In this document: positions 6,897 to 16,757 of the stretch, in pieces | How positions within the stretch are numbered: position 1 is the stretch's first letter | Layout of the letters: every line of letters begins with the position of its first letter | From: Sediminivirga luteola | Lineage (GTDB): Bacteria; Actinomycetota; Actinomycetes; Actinomycetales; Brevibacteriaceae | DNA length: 64,000 nt | NCBI RefSeq assembly: GCF_014639315.1 | Contig: NZ_BMFY01000015.1 | Location: 1 to 64,000, forward strand | Direction: 5' to 3' | Translations under genes and position numbers: made by a program | Notes under the pieces: model-generated | The model's database searches: none | Seen by the model: the letters and a program-made list of their open reading frames with translations, nothing else | Told to the model about the DNA's origin: nothing

Positions 6897-8153
6897 ATGA
6901 AGCTGCGCAAGGCCCGTAAACCGGGGGACAGGAACTCCGCGATCCCGGAGACCTCCGACTCCCTCGCCCGCCTGGACCGGCGCACGAAGGACCTCACCAA
7001 GCGGCTGCAGCCCGGCGAGATCGCCATCATCGACCACGAGGACATCGACCGCGTCTCCGCCGAGGCCCTCGTCGAGTGCCGGCCGGCGGCCGTCGTCAAC
7101 GCCGCCAAGTCCATCTCCGGCCGCTACCCGAACCTGGGCCCGGGGATCCTCCTGGACGGCGGCATCCCGCTGATCGACGATGCCGGGGGCCAGCTGTTCG
7201 AGCGGATCACCGAGGGCGACCGGATCCGCGTCGAAGGCGGCCGGGTGCTCCGCGGCGACGAGGAGATCGCCGCCGGGGTCCTGCAGACGAGGGAAAGCAT
7301 CGACGCCGATATGGCCACCGCCGAGGCCGGCATGGACGATGCTCTGGTCTCCTTCGTGGAGAACACCATCGAGTACGTCCGCAAGGACTCCGACCTCCTG
7401 CTGGGCAAGGTGGGCGTGCCGCACGTCCGCACGGACTTCACCGGGCGCCAGGCGCTCATCGTGGTGCGCGGCTACCACTACAAAGAGGACCTGGCGATGC
7501 TCCGGCCGTATATCCGCGAGTACCGGCCCATCCTGATCGGCGTGGACGGCGGGGCCGATGCGATCCTGGAGGCCGGCTACCAGCCCGACATGATCGTCGG
7601 CGATATGGACTCCGTCTCCGACACCGCCCTGACCTCCGGCGCCGAGCTCGTCGTGCACGCCTACCGCGACGGCCGCGCCCCCGGCGTCGAGCGCCTGCAC
7701 GATCTGGGGCTCGAATGCGTGCTCTTCCCGGCCTCAGGCACCAGCGAGGACATCGCGATGCTGCTCGCCGACGACAAGGGCGCCAGCCTGATCGTCGCGG
7801 TGGGCACCCACGACACCCTCATCGAGTTCCTCGACAAGGGCCGCAAGGGCATGGCGTCCACCTTCCTGACCCGGCTGCGCGTCGGCTCGAAGCTCGTGGA
7901 CGCCAAGGGCGTGTCCCGGCTCTACCGCCAGCGGATCTCCAGCCTTCAGCTGGCCCTGCTGGTGGTAGCCGGATTCGTCGCGCTCTCCGCGGCCGTCACC
8001 GCGACCCCCGGCGGGCAGACCCTGCTGGGCCTCATCGGCGCGAACTTCGACGGCTTCTTCCAATGGCTCCGCGGCCTGTTCGACTCGACCCCGCCGACCG
8101 CCGCGGACCTCGGCATCGTCTCCCCGCTACTGAAGGACTCCCTCACGCCGTGA
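6897..8153 (+). CDS. steA: SteA-like cell-separation protein (Rv1697 family)
   Basis: A 418-residue protein of the family described in Corynebacterium glutamicum as SteA, which works with SteB in daughter-cell separation by influencing peptidoglycan hydrolase activation. The family core includes GEIAIIDHEDIDRVSAEAL, NAAKSISGRYPNLGP, LIGVDGGADAILEAG and IVGDMDSVSD; the last resembles the thiamin-pyrophosphokinase-like fold. A hydrophobic segment near residues ~345-368 (LQLALLVVAGFVALSAAV) should anchor it in the membrane. It is followed with a 4-nt overlap by its partner steB. It has no obvious Shine-Dalgarno. Confidence 0.87.
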   Translation: MKLRKARKPGDRNSAIPETSDSLARLDRRTKDLTKRLQPGEIAIIDHEDIDRVSAEALVECRPAAVVNAAKSISGRYPNLGPGILLDGGIPLIDDAGGQLFERITEGDRIRVEGGRVLRGDEEIAAGVLQTRESIDADMATAEAGMDDALVSFVENTIEYVRKDSDLLLGKVGVPHVRTDFTGRQALIVVRGYHYKEDLAMLRPYIREYRPILIGVDGGADAILEAGYQPDMIVGDMDSVSDTALTSGAELVVHAYRDGRAPGVERLHDLGLECVLFPASGTSEDIAMLLADDKGASLIVAVGTHDTLIEFLDKGRKGMASTFLTRLRVGSKLVDAKGVSRLYRQRISSLQLALLVVAGFVALSAAVTATPGGQTLLGLIGANFDGFFQWLRGLFDSTPPTAADLGIVSPLLKDSLTP

Positions 8154-9199
8154 TCGACTTCCGTTACCACCTGGTCTCCCTCATCTCCGTGTTCCTGGCG
8201 CTGGCGATCGGGATCATCCTGGGCGCCGGCCCCTTAAGGGAACCCATCGGGGAGTCGCTGACTCAGCAGGTCGAGTCGCTGCGCGAGGACCGGGACCAGC
8301 TCCGCCAGCAGGCGCAGGCCGCCGAAGCGCTCAGCGAAGCCCAGGGCGCCTTCGTCGAGCAGAGCGCGCCCCGGCTGCTGCGCGACTCCCTGAACGATGT
8401 GCCCGTCGTAGTGATCGGTCTGCCCAGCGCCGATGACGAGGTGCTCGCCGGTCTTCAGACCCGGCTGGGCGAGGCCGGCGCCGGACCAGTCACCACCGTG
8501 ACGCTCGCCGAGGACTTCCTGGACGCCCAGGCGGACGACGCCCGCGCCGCGCTCGACGAGATCGACCCCGGTCTGCCACAGGACACCGCCGGCCTGCTGG
8601 AGGCACTCGCCCGCGGGGTCTCGCCGGCCGCGCAGAGCGGCTCCGGCAGCGACGGCGAGAACGCGGCAGAGGACGGCGACGGCGCGCCCGAATCCGGCGA
8701 GCCCGGTGCGCCGGAGGACTACCTGCAGGCGCTCGTCGACGCCGGGCTGATCGGGACCAGCGAGAACGCCGCACCCGACGCGCGGCTGGCCATCGTGGTC
8801 GGCCGGGACCACAGCGCGGTCCAGCCCGCGCCAGCGGAAGAGACGCAGACGGCCGGCCCCACAGAGGAGAGCGACCCCCTGCAGACCGTGGACAGCGGCG
8901 CGACCGAGGCGTTCACCGGTTTCGCCCACTCACTGGAGAACAGGATGGACGGCGTCGTCGTCGCCGGTGACGGGCTCTCCGCCACCGAGGGGCTGGTGGC
9001 CGCGCTGCGCGCCGAGGAACCGGCGCTGTCCACCGTTGACGGCATCGTCAGCCCCGCCGGCCAGGTCATCGCCGTGCTCGCCGGTGCCGAACAGCTCGAC
9101 GGAGGCCGCGGCGACTACGGCTTCACCGCCGATGAGCTCCTCCCGCCCGAGCCCCGCACCGCGGGCGGGAACGACCAGCAGGACGACCAGGAAGGCTGA
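8150..9199 (+). CDS. steB: SteB/MctB-like membrane protein (Rv1698 family)
   Basis: A 349-residue protein of the family annotated as copper transporter MctB in mycobacteria and as SteB, the SteA partner, in corynebacteria. An N-terminal membrane helix (LVSLISVFLALAIGIILGAG, residues ~7-27) precedes a coiled coil (ESLTQQVESLREDRDQLRQQ) and a large extracytoplasmic domain. That domain contains an acidic low-complexity stretch (residues ~160-190). The start is GTG 8150 in a GTGA overlap with steA, followed directly by the family N-terminus (V)IDFRYHLVSL. The copper role seems less certain here than the SteAB role, given the adjacency. Confidence 0.85.
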   Translation: MIDFRYHLVSLISVFLALAIGIILGAGPLREPIGESLTQQVESLREDRDQLRQQAQAAEALSEAQGAFVEQSAPRLLRDSLNDVPVVVIGLPSADDEVLAGLQTRLGEAGAGPVTTVTLAEDFLDAQADDARAALDEIDPGLPQDTAGLLEALARGVSPAAQSGSGSDGENAAEDGDGAPESGEPGAPEDYLQALVDAGLIGTSENAAPDARLAIVVGRDHSAVQPAPAEETQTAGPTEESDPLQTVDSGATEAFTGFAHSLENRMDGVVVAGDGLSATEGLVAALRAEEPALSTVDGIVSPAGQVIAVLAGAEQLDGGRGDYGFTADELLPPEPRTAGGNDQQDDQEG

Positions 9200-9201
9200 T
9201 C

Positions 9202-10044
9202 ATGCTCCGCTCCCTCGCCTCCATCGCCCTCGCGGCAGGTGCCGGATACGGCGTGGCGCGCACCGTCATGGTGCTGCGCGGCGCCCTGCCGGGAAGCGCC
9301 CGGCTCGAACGGCCCAACCACCGCGGTGACACCGTGACCCTCCTGGAGGGTCCCGCCTACGCCGCGGGTGCGCTGGCCGGGATTGCCGCCGGCACGGACG
9401 GCCGGGTGGCCGCGGCCGCCGCCACCGCCACGTCCTGCGCCGCGGTGCTCGGGGCGGTCGACGATCTGGCCGACCGCGGCGACTCCAAGGGCTTCCGCGG
9501 TCACCTGCGGGCCCTGTCCGAGGGCCGGGTGACCACGGGCCTGCTGAAGGTCGCCGGCATCGGCGCGGCCGGCCTGGGTGCCAGCGCCATCCTCCTGACC
9601 GGCGGCAGGCCTCCGGCGGCGCGCGCCTCCGGTGCGGTGGCCGGCGCGGCCGATGTGCTCGTCTCCGGTGCCCTGATCGCCGGCAGCGCGAACCTCGTGA
9701 ACCTGCTCGATCTGCGGCCCGGACGGGCGCTGAAGGCCGGCTACCTGGCGATCCTCGCCTCCGGCGGAGGGCTGCGGCCCGCGCCACTGGTGGCCGCGGC
9801 AGCCGGCGCCGGGGCCGCCGTCCTGCCCGACGACCTCGCCGGCCGGTCCATGCTGGGCGACTGCGGCGCCAATGCGCTCGGCGCGCTGCTGGGCGTGCAC
9901 GCCGTGCTGAGCCGCACACCGCGCAGCCGCGCCGTGCTCCTGGCGGGCATCGTCGCGGCGACCGCGGCCAGCGAGCGGATCAGCTTCACCCGCGTGATCG
10001 AATCCACTCCCGTCCTCCGCGAGCTCGACGCGCTCGGCCGGTGA
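9202..10044 (+). CDS. Divergent MraY/WecA-like polyprenyl-phosphate sugar-phosphate transferase family protein
   Basis: A 280-residue integral membrane protein, rich in Ala/Gly/Leu helices. It carries degenerate but ordered signatures of the MraY/WecA (GT4) superfamily: ERPNHRGDTVTLLEGPAYAAG (like the PxxGTPTMGG region), LGAVDDLAD with a following K (the Asp-Asp motif), NLVNLLDLRPG (like NAVNLTDGLDG), and MLGDCGANALGALLG (like the GDTGS motif). The superfamily transfers sugar-1-phosphate from a nucleotide sugar to a polyprenyl phosphate. Whether this member is active is unknown; at 280 residues it is shorter than MraY. It starts two bases after steB and overlaps murJ (GTGA at 10041). Confidence 0.65.
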   Translation: MLRSLASIALAAGAGYGVARTVMVLRGALPGSARLERPNHRGDTVTLLEGPAYAAGALAGIAAGTDGRVAAAAATATSCAAVLGAVDDLADRGDSKGFRGHLRALSEGRVTTGLLKVAGIGAAGLGASAILLTGGRPPAARASGAVAGAADVLVSGALIAGSANLVNLLDLRPGRALKAGYLAILASGGGLRPAPLVAAAAGAGAAVLPDDLAGRSMLGDCGANALGALLGVHAVLSRTPRSRAVLLAGIVAATAASERISFTRVIESTPVLRELDALGR

Positions 10045-11714
10045 ACGCCCCCGCGGGCATCGGCGCGGCCCGGCTGGCCCGGCTGCTCGCCTCCACCGCC
10101 CTCCTGGTCTCGGCCATCACCCTGGCCAGCCGGATCTTCGGCTTCGGGCGCTGGCTGGTGTTCTCCCCGGCGGTCGGCGCCGGCGGCGTGGGCACCGCCT
10201 ACCAGTCGGCGAATCAGCTGCCCAATGTCCTTTTCGAGGTGATCGCCGGCGGCGCGCTCAGCGGCGCCATAGTCCCGCTGCTCGCCGCGCCGCTGGCCGC
10301 CGCCGACCGCGCCACCGTCAGCCGGATCGCCTCGGCGCTGCTGACCTGGGCGCTCACCGTCACAGTGCCGCTGGCGCTGCTGGTGGCCGTGTTCCACCGG
10401 CCGCTGGCGGCCGTACTGCTGTCCACCTCCTCGGGAGCGCACGAGCCGGGCACCGTGGACCTGGCCGGGCGGCTGTTGCTGATGTTCGCCCCGCAACTGG
10501 TCTTCTACGCCCTGGGCGCCGTGCTGGTGGGGGTGCTGCAGGCGCACCGGAAGTTCCTGTGGCCGGCGTTCATGCCGCTGCTGTCCTCCGTCGTGGTGAT
10601 GGGCAGCTACATCGCCTTCGCCGCGACCAAGGACGGCATCGGCCCGCGTGAGGCCGGGCTCACCGCCGAGCTGTGGCTGGGCCTGGGCACCACCGCCGGG
10701 GTGCTGGCCCTCTCCGTGCCGCTGCTGCTGCCCACCCGGAACGCCGGGGTGCGGCTGCGCCTGAGCTGGCGGTTCCCGCCGGGCGTGGCCCGCCGGGCGT
10801 TCCGGCTCGCTACCGCCGGTATGACCGCGCTCCTGGCGCAGCAGGCCTCGGTCGTGACCATCATGCTACTGGCCAACCGCGTCGGCGGCACGGGCGCGTA
10901 TGTGGTGTTCACCTACGCCCAGGCGGTCTACCTGCTGCCCTATGCCGTGCTGGCGGTGCCGCTGGCGACGGTCGCGTTCCCGCGGCTGAGCGAACGGGCG
11001 CAGACCGGCAGCCGGGAGGAGTTCGCCGAGGCCGCCGCCAGGGGCCTGCGCACCATCCTGCTGGCCTCTGCCGCCGGCGTGGCGCTCCTGATCGCCGCGG
11101 CCGCACCGCTGCAGGAGTTCTTCCTGACCATCGACGCGGCGGGTGACCAGGACGGCGTCCCGCTGACGGGACTGGGCACCGCGGTGCTGCTGATGAGCCT
11201 GGGCCTGCCCGGGTGGGCGCTCGTGGCCTATGTCTCACGTGCCTGTTATGCGCAGGAGCGCTCGCGGTACGCCGCCGGCAGCACCGCGGCCGGCTGGGCC
11301 GCCGCCGTCGTGGCGTCCCTCGTGCTGGTCCCGGTGCTCATCCGCCTCTCACCGTCCTGGGGCACGGACGGACCCGCCACCACGGGGGAGGCGACGCTGT
11401 GGGCGCTGGCCCTGGGGAACTCCGCCGGCATGGTCGTCGCCGGTGTGCTGCTGCTGATCGCCCTGCGGCGGATCTCCGGAGCCGGGGCGCTGGCCGGAGT
11501 TCCCTCGACGCTCCTGGTCCTGGTGCCGGGCGCGGTGCTGGGCGCCTGGGCCGGCCGGACCGCGGGGGAGTGGCTGATGACGGTGCTGGAGTTCGGCCCG
11601 GCCGCCTCGGCGGTGCTGGCAGGCCTGGCCGCCGGCACGCTCGCCCTGGCCGTGGTCGGCGTGCTCGTGGCGGGGCTGCGACGCGGACTGGTGCACGATA
11701 TCCGCGCCCTGTGA
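10041..11714 (+). CDS. murJ: MurJ/MviN-type lipid II flippase
   Basis: A 557-residue polytopic membrane protein of the MOP exporter superfamily, with about 14 hydrophobic segments. Family features are ASRIFGFGRWLVFSPAVG near the N-terminus, NVLFEVIAGGALSGAIVPLL, and charged residues within helices. MurJ proteins flip lipid-linked peptidoglycan precursor. Many actinobacteria carry another MviN near the replication origin, so this copy may serve a different or additional lipid-linked substrate; that is inference. The start is GTG 10041, overlapping the MraY-like gene. A hairpin follows the stop. Confidence 0.88.
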   Translation: MNAPAGIGAARLARLLASTALLVSAITLASRIFGFGRWLVFSPAVGAGGVGTAYQSANQLPNVLFEVIAGGALSGAIVPLLAAPLAAADRATVSRIASALLTWALTVTVPLALLVAVFHRPLAAVLLSTSSGAHEPGTVDLAGRLLLMFAPQLVFYALGAVLVGVLQAHRKFLWPAFMPLLSSVVVMGSYIAFAATKDGIGPREAGLTAELWLGLGTTAGVLALSVPLLLPTRNAGVRLRLSWRFPPGVARRAFRLATAGMTALLAQQASVVTIMLLANRVGGTGAYVVFTYAQAVYLLPYAVLAVPLATVAFPRLSERAQTGSREEFAEAAARGLRTILLASAAGVALLIAAAAPLQEFFLTIDAAGDQDGVPLTGLGTAVLLMSLGLPGWALVAYVSRACYAQERSRYAAGSTAAGWAAAVVASLVLVPVLIRLSPSWGTDGPATTGEATLWALALGNSAGMVVAGVLLLIALRRISGAGALAGVPSTLLVLVPGAVLGAWAGRTAGEWLMTVLEFGPAASAVLAGLAAGTLALAVVGVLVAGLRRGLVHDIRAL

Positions 11715-11721
11715 CCTTTCG

Positions 11722-11742
11722 CTGTGCCCGGCGCGGGCACAG
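11722..11742 (+). terminator. Hairpin after murJ, possible factor-assisted terminator
   Basis: A perfect 9-bp stem, CTGTGCCCG (11722-11730) with CGGGCACAG (11734-11742), encloses a 3-nt loop eight bases after the murJ stop. There is no T-tract, so it would be a U-less actinobacterial terminator or an mRNA-stabilising hairpin. Confidence 0.5.
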
Positions 11743-11839
11743 ACGCGGCCGGGCACGCTGGGCGGGGCCCGAGCATCACGGGCAGGCAACGACTCTGCGA
11801 CGACCGGCCCTGGAGGCGCCGGAGGGTGCGGCGCACGGC

Positions 11840-11845
11840 TAGTAT
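11840..11845 (+). promoter_or_regulatory. Candidate -10 element ahead of the glycosyltransferase gene
   Basis: TAGTAT fits the actinobacterial TANNNT -10 consensus. It lies 33 nt before the GTG at 11879, leaving a short leader that contains a clear Shine-Dalgarno (GAGAGGAG, 11866-11873). No convincing -35 is visible. Confidence 0.4.
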
Positions 11846-11878
11846 GGCGGTAGAGGTTGTTCGCAGAGAGGAGTCCGG

Positions 11879-13051
11879 GTGTCCACCACGCGCATCGTCC
11901 TGGTGCTCGGTTCCTCCGCCGGGGGTGTGGGCGTGCACATCGCCGGGCTGGCCAGGGAATTCGCCGAGCGCGGACACCGCGTGGGCGTGATCGGCCCAGC
12001 CGAGACCGATGCCCTGTTCCGGTTCTCCTCAATCCCCGGTGTGAAGTTCGCCGCCGTGCCCATCCCCGCTCATCTGTCGCTCAAGGAGACCGCCGCCGTG
12101 AGCGCCGTGCGTGCCCTCGTCGCGGGATTCCACGCCGATGTCGTCCACGCCCACGGTTTCCGCGCCGGGCTGCTCAGCGCCCTGGCCATCCGCCGCATGC
12201 GGCGCTCGCGGCGGCCCCGGCTCGTCTCCACCTGGCACAACGCCATCCTGTCCACCGGGGCCCGGCGCCGGCTCGAACGCGGCGTGGCCCGGCTGATCGC
12301 GCGCAGCGCCGACGTCGTCCTGGGCGCCAGCACCGATCTGGTGGATCTGGCCCGCGAGCTGGGCGCCGAACATGCCGCTTTCGCTCCCGCCGCCGCGCCC
12401 ACGCCGACGTTCGGCGAGGACGTCAACTACTCCCTGGCGCGCCGCCGGCTGCTCTCCGAGCTGGGCCTCTCGCCGGACGCCATCCTGGTGCTCACCGTCG
12501 GCCGCGTCGCCCGGCAGAAGGACCTGGGCACCCTTCTGGACGCCGCCGCACTCTGGCGGCAGACGCATCCGCGGATCCACTCCATCGTCGCCGGCGGCGC
12601 CGACGCCAAGGTGCTCGAGCCGCTCGAGGCGCGGGTGCGCGCCGAGCGGCTACCCGTGCGATTCCTCGGCCAGCGGCAGGACGTCGCGGCGCTCAACATC
12701 GCCGCCGACATGGTCGTCCTGACCAGCACCTGGGAGGCCCGCGCCCTGGTGATCCAGGAGGCCATGCTCACCGGCAAAGCCGTCATCGCCACGGCGGTGG
12801 GCGGTCTTCCCGAGCTCATCGGCGATGCCGGCATCCTGGTGCCCGCCGGAGACGCCGAGGCCGTCGCCGACGCGGTCCGTGCCCTCGCGGACGATCCGGT
12901 GCGCCGCAGCGAGCTCGGCCGCCAGGCCGCCATCCGCGCCCTCGATTTCCCCGATGAGGCGCACGTCGCCGACGTCATCGAGGAGTTCTACGCCAGCCGC
13001 CCCGCGAGCCCTGGCAACCCCGGCAATCCGAAGGAGAGCACGACGCCATGA
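11879..13051 (+). CDS. GT-B glycosyltransferase, family 4 type
   Basis: A 390-residue glycosyltransferase. The N-terminus LVLGSSAGGVGVHIAGLARE has the glycine-rich donor/acceptor loop typical of GT4 enzymes, and a second Rossmann domain begins with LVLTVGRVARQKDLGTLLDA. The nucleotide-sugar binding segment is VVLTSTWEARALVIQEAMLTGKAVIATAVGG, with the E-x7-E pattern. Start GTG 11879 has a strong GAGAGGAG ribosome site. It lies directly downstream of the MraY-like and MurJ genes and overlaps a second GT-B-like gene (ATGA). The donor and acceptor are unknown. Confidence 0.88.
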   Translation: MSTTRIVLVLGSSAGGVGVHIAGLAREFAERGHRVGVIGPAETDALFRFSSIPGVKFAAVPIPAHLSLKETAAVSAVRALVAGFHADVVHAHGFRAGLLSALAIRRMRRSRRPRLVSTWHNAILSTGARRRLERGVARLIARSADVVLGASTDLVDLARELGAEHAAFAPAAAPTPTFGEDVNYSLARRRLLSELGLSPDAILVLTVGRVARQKDLGTLLDAAALWRQTHPRIHSIVAGGADAKVLEPLEARVRAERLPVRFLGQRQDVAALNIAADMVVLTSTWEARALVIQEAMLTGKAVIATAVGGLPELIGDAGILVPAGDAEAVADAVRALADDPVRRSELGRQAAIRALDFPDEAHVADVIEEFYASRPASPGNPGNPKESTTP

Positions 13052-14244
13052 CGCATCCCGGCCCGCAGACCGCCCAGCTGGACGCGCCGCCCGCGGGGGC
13101 CCGCATCCTGCACGTGGTACAGGACACCGGGGATGCTCAAGGCTCCCTGAGCCCCGTCGCCGAGCTGGCCGGGATCGCGATCGGCGCCCAGCGCGAGGCG
13201 CGCCTGGCCGCCGGCGTCGCGGGCACCAGCCGCATCGTGGAAGCCGTACTCGCGCAGGCCGGCACCCCCGAGGAGGAGGTGCTCCGCCTGGAGGCGCCCA
13301 TCGGCGGCCAGCCCTCCCCGGCCGATCCCCGTAGCGCCTTCACCCTGCACCGCGCCTACCCCTTCACGGACATCGTCCATGCCCACGGCCTGGGCGCCGG
13401 CGTGATCGCCGCCCTGGGCATGACGGGGCTGCCCAGGCGGCTCCGCCCGGCGCTGGTCGTCACCCTGGGCCGGGACTCCGGTGAGAGCGGCAGCTCCGTG
13501 CTGGACCGCTCCGGGCAGGCGCTGATCGCCAAGCACGCCGATGTGCTGCTTGGCTCCACCGCCGGGATCACCGAGGCTTTCGCGGACCAGGTGCCGATCA
13601 CCCGCCGGGCGCCGCTGCTGCGGCCGGAGGACCCGCCGGCCCCGCTGGTACCCCGCAAGGACCGGTCCACCGTCCGGCGGGAACTCGGGCTGGGCGAGGA
13701 CACCTGGCTGATCGCCGCGCCGATCGCGCTGCAGGACTCCACCGCGCTGACCACGATCGTCGACGCCAGCCGCCTGGTGGGCAAGGGGCGCGTGGGGCGC
13801 AGCGCCGTGCTCGCCCTGACGGGCACCGGATCCGAGCGCAGCACGATCGCCCGGGAGTTCGCCACCCGCCGCGACTTCTCCCTGGTGCTGCCCGAGCCAG
13901 CGGACCAGCCCAGCGTGCTGGCCGCCGCGGACGTGGTCATCGCCTCCGAGCGGATGTCCGGCGTGGATGGGGACGCGCTGCTCCAGCTCGGCCGCCCCGC
14001 CATCGGGATCGGCACCCGCAAGCTCGGCGCGCTGCTGGGCGACGAACTCGTCCTGGTCCCGGAGGACGACACCGATGCGCTCGTCAAGGCGGTCCACCTG
14101 CTGCTGGACGACCCCATCGCCCGCGGCCGCATGGGGCACGCGGCGAAACGCCGCGTCAGCGCCTCGAACCCCGCCGAAACCGCTGCCACGGAGCTGCTGG
14201 ACGCCTATGCGGCGGCCCTGAGGAACCGCCGCGCCGGCCGCTGA
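13048..14244 (+). CDS. Second GT-B-like protein, probably a divergent glycosyltransferase
   Basis: A 398-residue protein with the same layout as its upstream neighbour: an N-terminal sensor-like segment ILHVVQDTGDAQGSLSPVAE, VHAHGLGAGVIAALGM (compare VHAHGFRAGLLSALAI in the neighbour), and a C-terminal Rossmann half with VLAAADVVIASERMSGVDGDALLQLGRP. The second conserved Glu of the GT4 donor site is not clearly present, so it could be inactive or a partner subunit. It starts in an ATGA overlap with the upstream glycosyltransferase, so the two should be made together. Confidence 0.7.
   Translation: MTHPGPQTAQLDAPPAGARILHVVQDTGDAQGSLSPVAELAGIAIGAQREARLAAGVAGTSRIVEAVLAQAGTPEEEVLRLEAPIGGQPSPADPRSAFTLHRAYPFTDIVHAHGLGAGVIAALGMTGLPRRLRPALVVTLGRDSGESGSSVLDRSGQALIAKHADVLLGSTAGITEAFADQVPITRRAPLLRPEDPPAPLVPRKDRSTVRRELGLGEDTWLIAAPIALQDSTALTTIVDASRLVGKGRVGRSAVLALTGTGSERSTIAREFATRRDFSLVLPEPADQPSVLAAADVVIASERMSGVDGDALLQLGRPAIGIGTRKLGALLGDELVLVPEDDTDALVKAVHLLLDDPIARGRMGHAAKRRVSASNPAETAATELLDAYAAALRNRRAGR

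Positions 14245-14282: not shown

Positions 14283-16757
<2,475 letters not shown>

Follow-up and report, generated by a model that had tools for sequence, protein, structure and literature searches.

A divergent MraY/WecA-like protein encoded beside steAB accompanies SteA proteins that keep an intact nucleotide-binding-type site

The SteAB complex, which acts in cell separation, has been studied in Corynebacterium and Mycobacterium (PMC6705760, PMC12977500), and the septal-separation link that we draw on below is known from that literature, for SteAB only. SteA/TapA is predicted to be essential in Mycobacterium tuberculosis, and its ligand and enzyme activity were posed as questions in papers of 2025 and 2026. 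The 2026 SteAB paper described SteAB after Spo0A in Clostridia, reported a stabilising effect of UDP and GDP on C. glutamicum SteA, predicted that its pocket binds carbohydrate and left the ligand open (PMC12977500); a text search of that paper turned up neither a glycosyltransferase nor MurJ or lipid II. The TapA preprint reports that TapA does not require MctB/SteB and likewise leaves enzyme activity open. Here we describe a 64,000-nucleotide stretch of the Sediminivirga luteola genome (the window; contig NZ_BMFY01000015.1, positions 1 to 64,000), in which the gene following steB, starting at position 9202, encodes a membrane protein that we call MraYL. Its predicted fold is that of the polyprenyl-phosphate N-acetylhexosamine-1-phosphate transferase (PNPT) superfamily, which includes MraY, WecA/TagO and DPAGT1. 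The window has the same SteA and SteB families as the corynebacterial and mycobacterial system, in the same block ending in pyrG, whereas in the Mycobacteriales mraYL is missing and the SteA site is degenerate (4-5 of the 16 residues considered below). Open-access text searches, which are incomplete in coverage and so weak evidence, found no prior report of mraYL beside steAB or spo0A.

To place the locus, we surveyed a sample of genomes, many of them drafts, on which the labels Mycobacteriales and Streptomyces are inferred. Among 99 genomes of the window's order, mraYL was found in 59 of the 76 with SteA and in none of the 23 without it (a weak hit in G035 was left out of this count), and across 396 genomes of Actinomycetota it was present in 131/154 with SteA and 7/242 without SteA. 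Fifteen of the 23 SteA-only genomes of the phylum belong to two mraYL-less families, f22, which resembles Mycobacteriales in its genes and genome sizes, and f24; in the remaining eight, a contig break near steA is the likely explanation for the missing gene (three of these loci, L221, L225 and L226, were fetched, the others being judged by match positions). MraYL is missing from the Mycobacteriales, the lineage in which SteA is studied. A scan of named genomes found mraYL also in Clostridia, in the order steA-steB-GT2-mraYL, and in C. difficile the module sits after spoIVB-spo0A and before DUF3866-nudix-spoIIM-xerD. When 148 Clostridia were examined, SteA was encoded in 30 and MraYL in 29, all within those 30, with no MraYL in the 118 genomes without SteA. 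We conclude that SteA is usually accompanied by MraYL in both Actinomycetota and Clostridia, and the link to SteAB noted in the first-pass annotation of the window is therefore real and, as this gene-neighbourhood survey over two phyla indicates, extends far beyond it. It might be argued that the genes have no common function and are simply an inherited neighbourhood, as the nadK-recN-steA-steB-...-pyrG-nudix-xerD block is old and syntenic. However, the pairing holds in another context (after spo0A in Clostridia) and in two genomes where mraYL is present but not adjacent to steA (G462 and G330), and the six joint losses described below match residue-level decay of SteA; we consider such hitch-hiking highly improbable.

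Comparison of the first 97 SteA sequences revealed that the TPK/HPPK signature DGG...GDxDS is among the residues invariant in the presence of MraYL, and that T30, K31 and H47 of the N-terminal domain are likewise invariant with MraYL and variable without it. All 16 MraYL-associated site residues are intact in the SteA of the window. Scored over these 16 positions, SteA had 16/16 in 150 of 158 MraYL loci and 13-15 in the others, the lower values stemming from partial sequences or from K314R and G338 changes, while scores were 2-6 in the 19 loci that were rated as MraYL-negative and have a diverged SteA (L217 stops at the edge of a contig, and L083 and L227 come from one genome, so that 17 were used in tests). 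The complete DGG and GDxDS motifs were present in 77/79 actinobacterial MraYL-positive loci and in 0/17 MraYL-negative ones. The 16-residue list was picked with the negative loci in view, and we checked for this selection bias with 51 positions picked from 78 Clostridia-side loci alone (a few deep actinobacterial ones included): retention was 97% (minimum 88%) in actinobacterial MraYL-positive loci and 57% (maximum 69%) in MraYL-negative loci. Control proteins from the same block showed no such fall, with median scores for MraYL-positive versus MraYL-negative loci of 673 versus 656 for RecN and 966 versus 966 for PyrG, compared with 598 versus 420 for SteA itself; NadK and SteB were slightly lower.

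Mapped onto a RecN tree, both mraYL and the SteA site show six changes, and independent pairs agree throughout, 6 on all branches and 4 on the well-supported ones; the tree is a quick one, and a sign test on 4 pairs by itself is too small to reach significance. Eleven loci seemed to lack MraYL with the SteA site intact; contig cuts account for L037, L052, L090, L215, L216, L221, L225 and L226, genomes G462 and G330 carry mraYL elsewhere, and G622 does not readily fit. We conclude that mraYL has been lost about six times with decay of the SteA site each time, and that the presence of MraYL predicts whether SteA retains an intact nucleotide-binding-type active site. The function of SteA is thus probably linked to a pathway of lipid-linked sugars. 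The first-pass annotation had treated SteAB as a neighbour of the downstream genes; the adjacency stands, and SteA is more than a neighbour in that its own active site tracks MraYL.

By fold and by the DGG...GDxDS signature, the C-terminal domain of SteA belongs to the TPK/HPPK type. Its nearest structural match was archaeal HPPK (Z 13.8, sequence E 1.6e-7), followed by TPK (Z 9-11), with Maf and CstII glycosyltransferases among further matches. SteA thus shares the domain fold with TPK and archaeal HPPK (MptE) and, where mraYL is present, the signature, but it adds a swivelling N-terminal domain and a membrane anchor. Six clostridial-type loci are without steB (L202, L204, L207 and L222-L224, of which L204 and L224 are apparently the same genome). 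In these, SteA has no C-terminal membrane helix (hydropathy maximum at most 1.26, versus at least 2.2) and retains the DGG/GDxDS site and the GT2-mraYL neighbours. Since the helix is lost with SteB while the site and MraYL stay, the helix appears to go with SteB and the site with MraYL. An ordinary surface polymer of the teichoic-acid or exopolysaccharide type, made from an operon shared with steAB merely for timing, would account for the usual cluster make-up of PNPT protein, glycosyltransferase and flippase and for a glycosyltransferase that differs by lineage, but it would leave unexplained both that a soluble SteA persists beside GT2-mraYL once SteB has been lost and that the SteA site decays at each mraYL loss when recN and pyrG do not; we think it quite unlikely. 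Taken with a PNPT-fold partner, the stabilisation of SteA by UDP and GDP and its predicted carbohydrate pocket favour a site in SteA that may bind or process a nucleotide or nucleotide-sugar from a route to a lipid-linked glycan. SteA as an enzyme of that route and SteA as its sensor both stand as readings.

We then considered MraYL itself. An AlphaFold (AF2) model made from 71 homologues had a pLDDT of 94.3, and against the PDB only MraY, DPAGT1 and another PNPT were prominent (Z 18.6-22.9 over about 250 residues); MraY was the top match with Z 22.9 over 249 residues, DPAGT1 gave Z of about 20 and the next entry 6.1. The model thus indicates that MraYL has a PNPT-superfamily fold. The genome carries two other PF00953 proteins, which we take to be a WecA-like protein and MraY, and HHalign paired MraYL with the WecA-like protein (E 2e-8) across the DD, NxxNxxD and GD motifs, this profile alignment covering the WecA-like protein alone. 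The blocks lie at residues 87-88 (DD), 164-174 (NLVNLLDLRPG) and 219-222 (GDCG), so that the earlier assignment of this protein as MraY/WecA-like on the same motifs is borne out by both fold and sequence. Across 161 homologues from two phyla D87, D88, H101, K116, N167, D170, G219 and D220 are unchanging, and the catalytic and Mg-binding Asp residues of the superfamily (DD, NxxNxxD and GD) are therefore present in 161/161. The counterparts in A. aeolicus MraY are presumably D117, D118, D193, D196 and D265. MraYL scores 15.3 bits against PF00953, below the cut-off of 27, and its C. difficile counterpart has no match in Pfam or NCBIfam, so that it is passed over by standard annotation; sub-threshold family scores may be the explanation for its having been overlooked.

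MraYL differs from the rest of the superfamily in that LRPGRxxK stands where the others have DGxDG, that H101 past the DD motif is invariant, and that its scores fall under the Pfam and NCBIfam cut-offs. The position of the second DGxDG Asp (NLTDGLDG in MraY) is Pro173 by the WecA pairing, with Pro in 160/161 homologues, and no HHH motif of the MraY type was apparent on reading the MraYL sequences, with no direct alignment to MraY behind that reading. As neither feature is apparent, MraYL is not MraY by motif, and its sequence marks it as a family of its own within the superfamily. The same divergence, the missing DGLDG and the want of an obvious HHH make it very unlikely that MraYL, with its MraY-like fold and MurJ-like neighbour, is simply a second MraY that with a second MurJ provides a duplicate lipid I and lipid II supply for septal peptidoglycan; moreover, the clostridial module has no MurJ-like gene and only a GT2 related to AglJ/GpgS-type enzymes. 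These substitutions, together with a signature (RPGR, GH and a C-terminal E/D) that differs from that of MraY, could also be read as those of a binding or regulatory pseudo-enzyme. This would bind polyprenyl phosphate or a lipid-linked precursor and, together with SteA, already a known regulator (PMC6705760, PMC12977500), would signal lipid-carrier supply to the separation machinery, with no new glycan being made. We regard this as unlikely, because D87, D88, D170, D220 and K116 are invariant in 161/161 sequences of two phyla, which would be unusual for a pseudo-enzyme, and because the neighbours are glycosyltransferases and a flippase.

The operon order in the window is nadK-recN-steA-steB-mraYL-murJL-GT-GT'-pyrG-nudix-xerD-parA-scpA, where murJL is our name for the MurJ-like gene and GT denotes a glycosyltransferase; positions are given in Table 1. 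The genes between steB and pyrG lie where the first-pass annotation had placed them, as open reading frames and family matches confirm. The order steA-steB-mraYL-murJL is repeated in the other mraYL-bearing loci fetched from the window's order, so the arrangement is not chance.

Table 1. Positions of the genes and motifs discussed in the text
Feature	Coordinates	Strand	Remarks
steA	6897..8153	+	NF040608 match, 517.9 bits, above cut-off, E 1e-155
SteA domains			N-terminal swivelling-domain fold, C-terminal TPK/HPPK-like domain, transmembrane helix
SteA D217-G218-G219	7545..7553	+	First half of pyrophosphokinase-type signature
SteA G235-D236-M-D238-S239 (GDxDS)	7599..7613	+	Second half of signature
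steB	8150..9199	+	MctB family PF11382, E 6e-66
mraYL	9202..10044	+	280 aa, divergent membrane protein of predicted PNPT-superfamily fold, third steAB-operon gene
MraYL D87-D88 (DD motif of MraY/WecA)	9460..9465	+	Invariant 161/161; pairs with DD of the genome's WecA-like protein
MraYL N164-LVN167-LLD170-LRPGR175 family signature	9691..9726	+	Pro at second Asp of NxxNxxDGxDG
MraYL G219-D220 (GD motif of MraY/WecA)	9856..9861	+	Invariant 161/161
murJL	10041..11714	+	MurJ/MOP-type flippase, GTG start, 4-nt overlap with mraYL
GT-B glycosyltransferase	11879..13051	+	E-x7-E present; 164-nt gap upstream
Second GT-B-like gene, degenerate	13048..14244	+	4-nt overlap with first GT; E-x7-E absent
pyrG	14289..15980		

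The murJL product scored 153.9 bits against PF03023 (cut-off 27.4) and 166 bits against the NCBIfam MurJ equivalog, below its cut-off of 235.6. It resembles MurJ/MOP flippases in this family match and in several MurJ-conserved residues (Arg 33 and Arg/Lys 39 among them), and is unlike them in being a second copy, under the equivalog cut-off, that travels with mraYL. The genome holds two PF03023 proteins, which rules out the explanation that murJL is a lone MurJ and simply essential. In all fetched loci of the window's order mraYL and murJL are jointly present or jointly absent, while the GT can persist (L102 and L106) or be missing (for example L111 and L119). The second GT-B-like gene was observed only in the window's family among the fetched loci; its product gives a weak Pfam match and, as read from the sequence, is without the E-x7-E catalytic motif of GT-B retaining glycosyltransferases that the first GT retains, in keeping with its earlier description as degenerate, and it is a possible partner or regulator of the first GT. 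Elsewhere the architecture is mraYL-murJL-(GT-B) in Actinomycetales, GT2-mraYL in deep Actinomycetota and Clostridia, and murJL-GT-(770-aa protein)-mraYL in other actinobacterial lineages. A four-gene cassette, as first proposed, is thus rejected as a fixed unit, and that reading held in part: mraYL and murJL are kept together in the order, whereas the GT and the MurJ-like gene vary by lineage. The core is SteA, MraYL and some glycosyltransferase, with the MurJ-like protein lineage-specific. None of the outcomes that the first-pass annotation had named as refuting it was seen, and the roles it suggested, a septal glycan or a regulator of peptidoglycan flux, would be conjectural.

Several variant loci were also seen. 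The protein of about 770 residues (L057:7650-9953 and relatives) has no Pfam or NCBIfam match. Two loci of the window's family (L099 and L100) encode a SteA without its N-terminal domain and have lost mraYL and murJL, with a GT still beside steB. In four Streptomyces-like genomes (G223, G423, G457 and G202; L095-L098) mraYL and a GT directly follow recN with no steA or steB, and their MraYL keeps the four Asp residues, with N164 changed to His, K178 to Ala or Gly, and the C-terminus cut in 3/4. At L230 (G622), the expected place of mraYL after GT2 holds frames that by eye resemble a minimal nucleotidyltransferase/HEPN pair. In C. difficile, the last few bases of mraYL overlap the frame of a DUF3866 protein (L163:10614-11690; PF12982, E 1e-138), and in Clostridia mraYL and nudix are commonly separated by a stretch of comparable length.

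We favour, with modest confidence, an ancient SteA-centred lipid-linked sugar module. MraYL would probably move a sugar-1-phosphate from a nucleotide-sugar onto polyprenyl phosphate, other than as the normal lipid I enzyme; the adjoining GT2 or GT-B would extend the lipid-linked sugar, and in Actinomycetales and some other actinobacteria the dedicated MurJ-like protein would flip the product. The pyrophosphokinase-like site of SteA may bind or act on a nucleotide, nucleotide-sugar or pyrophosphate belonging to this route and signal that state through the membrane helix to SteB, which could position wall hydrolases at the septum. In the lineages that lost the route, Mycobacteriales and five others, SteA would have kept its structural and regulatory role while its site decayed. 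Our comparison demonstrates the gene order, the co-occurrence, the predicted fold, the conservation of catalytic residues and the loss of mraYL together with the SteA site, and from these we infer catalysis, substrates, the glycan, its flipping and the signalling.

Several observations weigh against this module. The partner GT and flippase differ from lineage to lineage; in G622, a draft Clostridia genome, the SteA site is intact although MraYL could not be detected; and the Streptomyces-like genomes have a changed MraYL and a GT without SteA. The lost second DGxDG Asp and the want of an obvious HHH could mean that catalysis by MraYL is lost or changed, and C. glutamicum SteA binds UDP and GDP though its lineage lacks MraYL. 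We suggest more tentatively, as a proposal that may well prove wrong, that ancestral SteA was an enzyme with a pyrophosphokinase or nucleotide-sugar-type site in an undescribed MraYL glycan pathway, and that mycobacterial SteA/TapA is a derived pseudo-enzyme keeping the regulatory half, the site evolving with MraYL and the helix with SteB.

The lineage used for the study of SteA is one in which the site has decayed. Our comparison names a pathway that, where present, foretells an intact site in SteA, and it supplies residues to mutate. It also identifies MraYL as a widely conserved membrane enzyme candidate of Actinomycetota and of Clostridia, C. difficile among them, that escapes both Pfam and NCBIfam.

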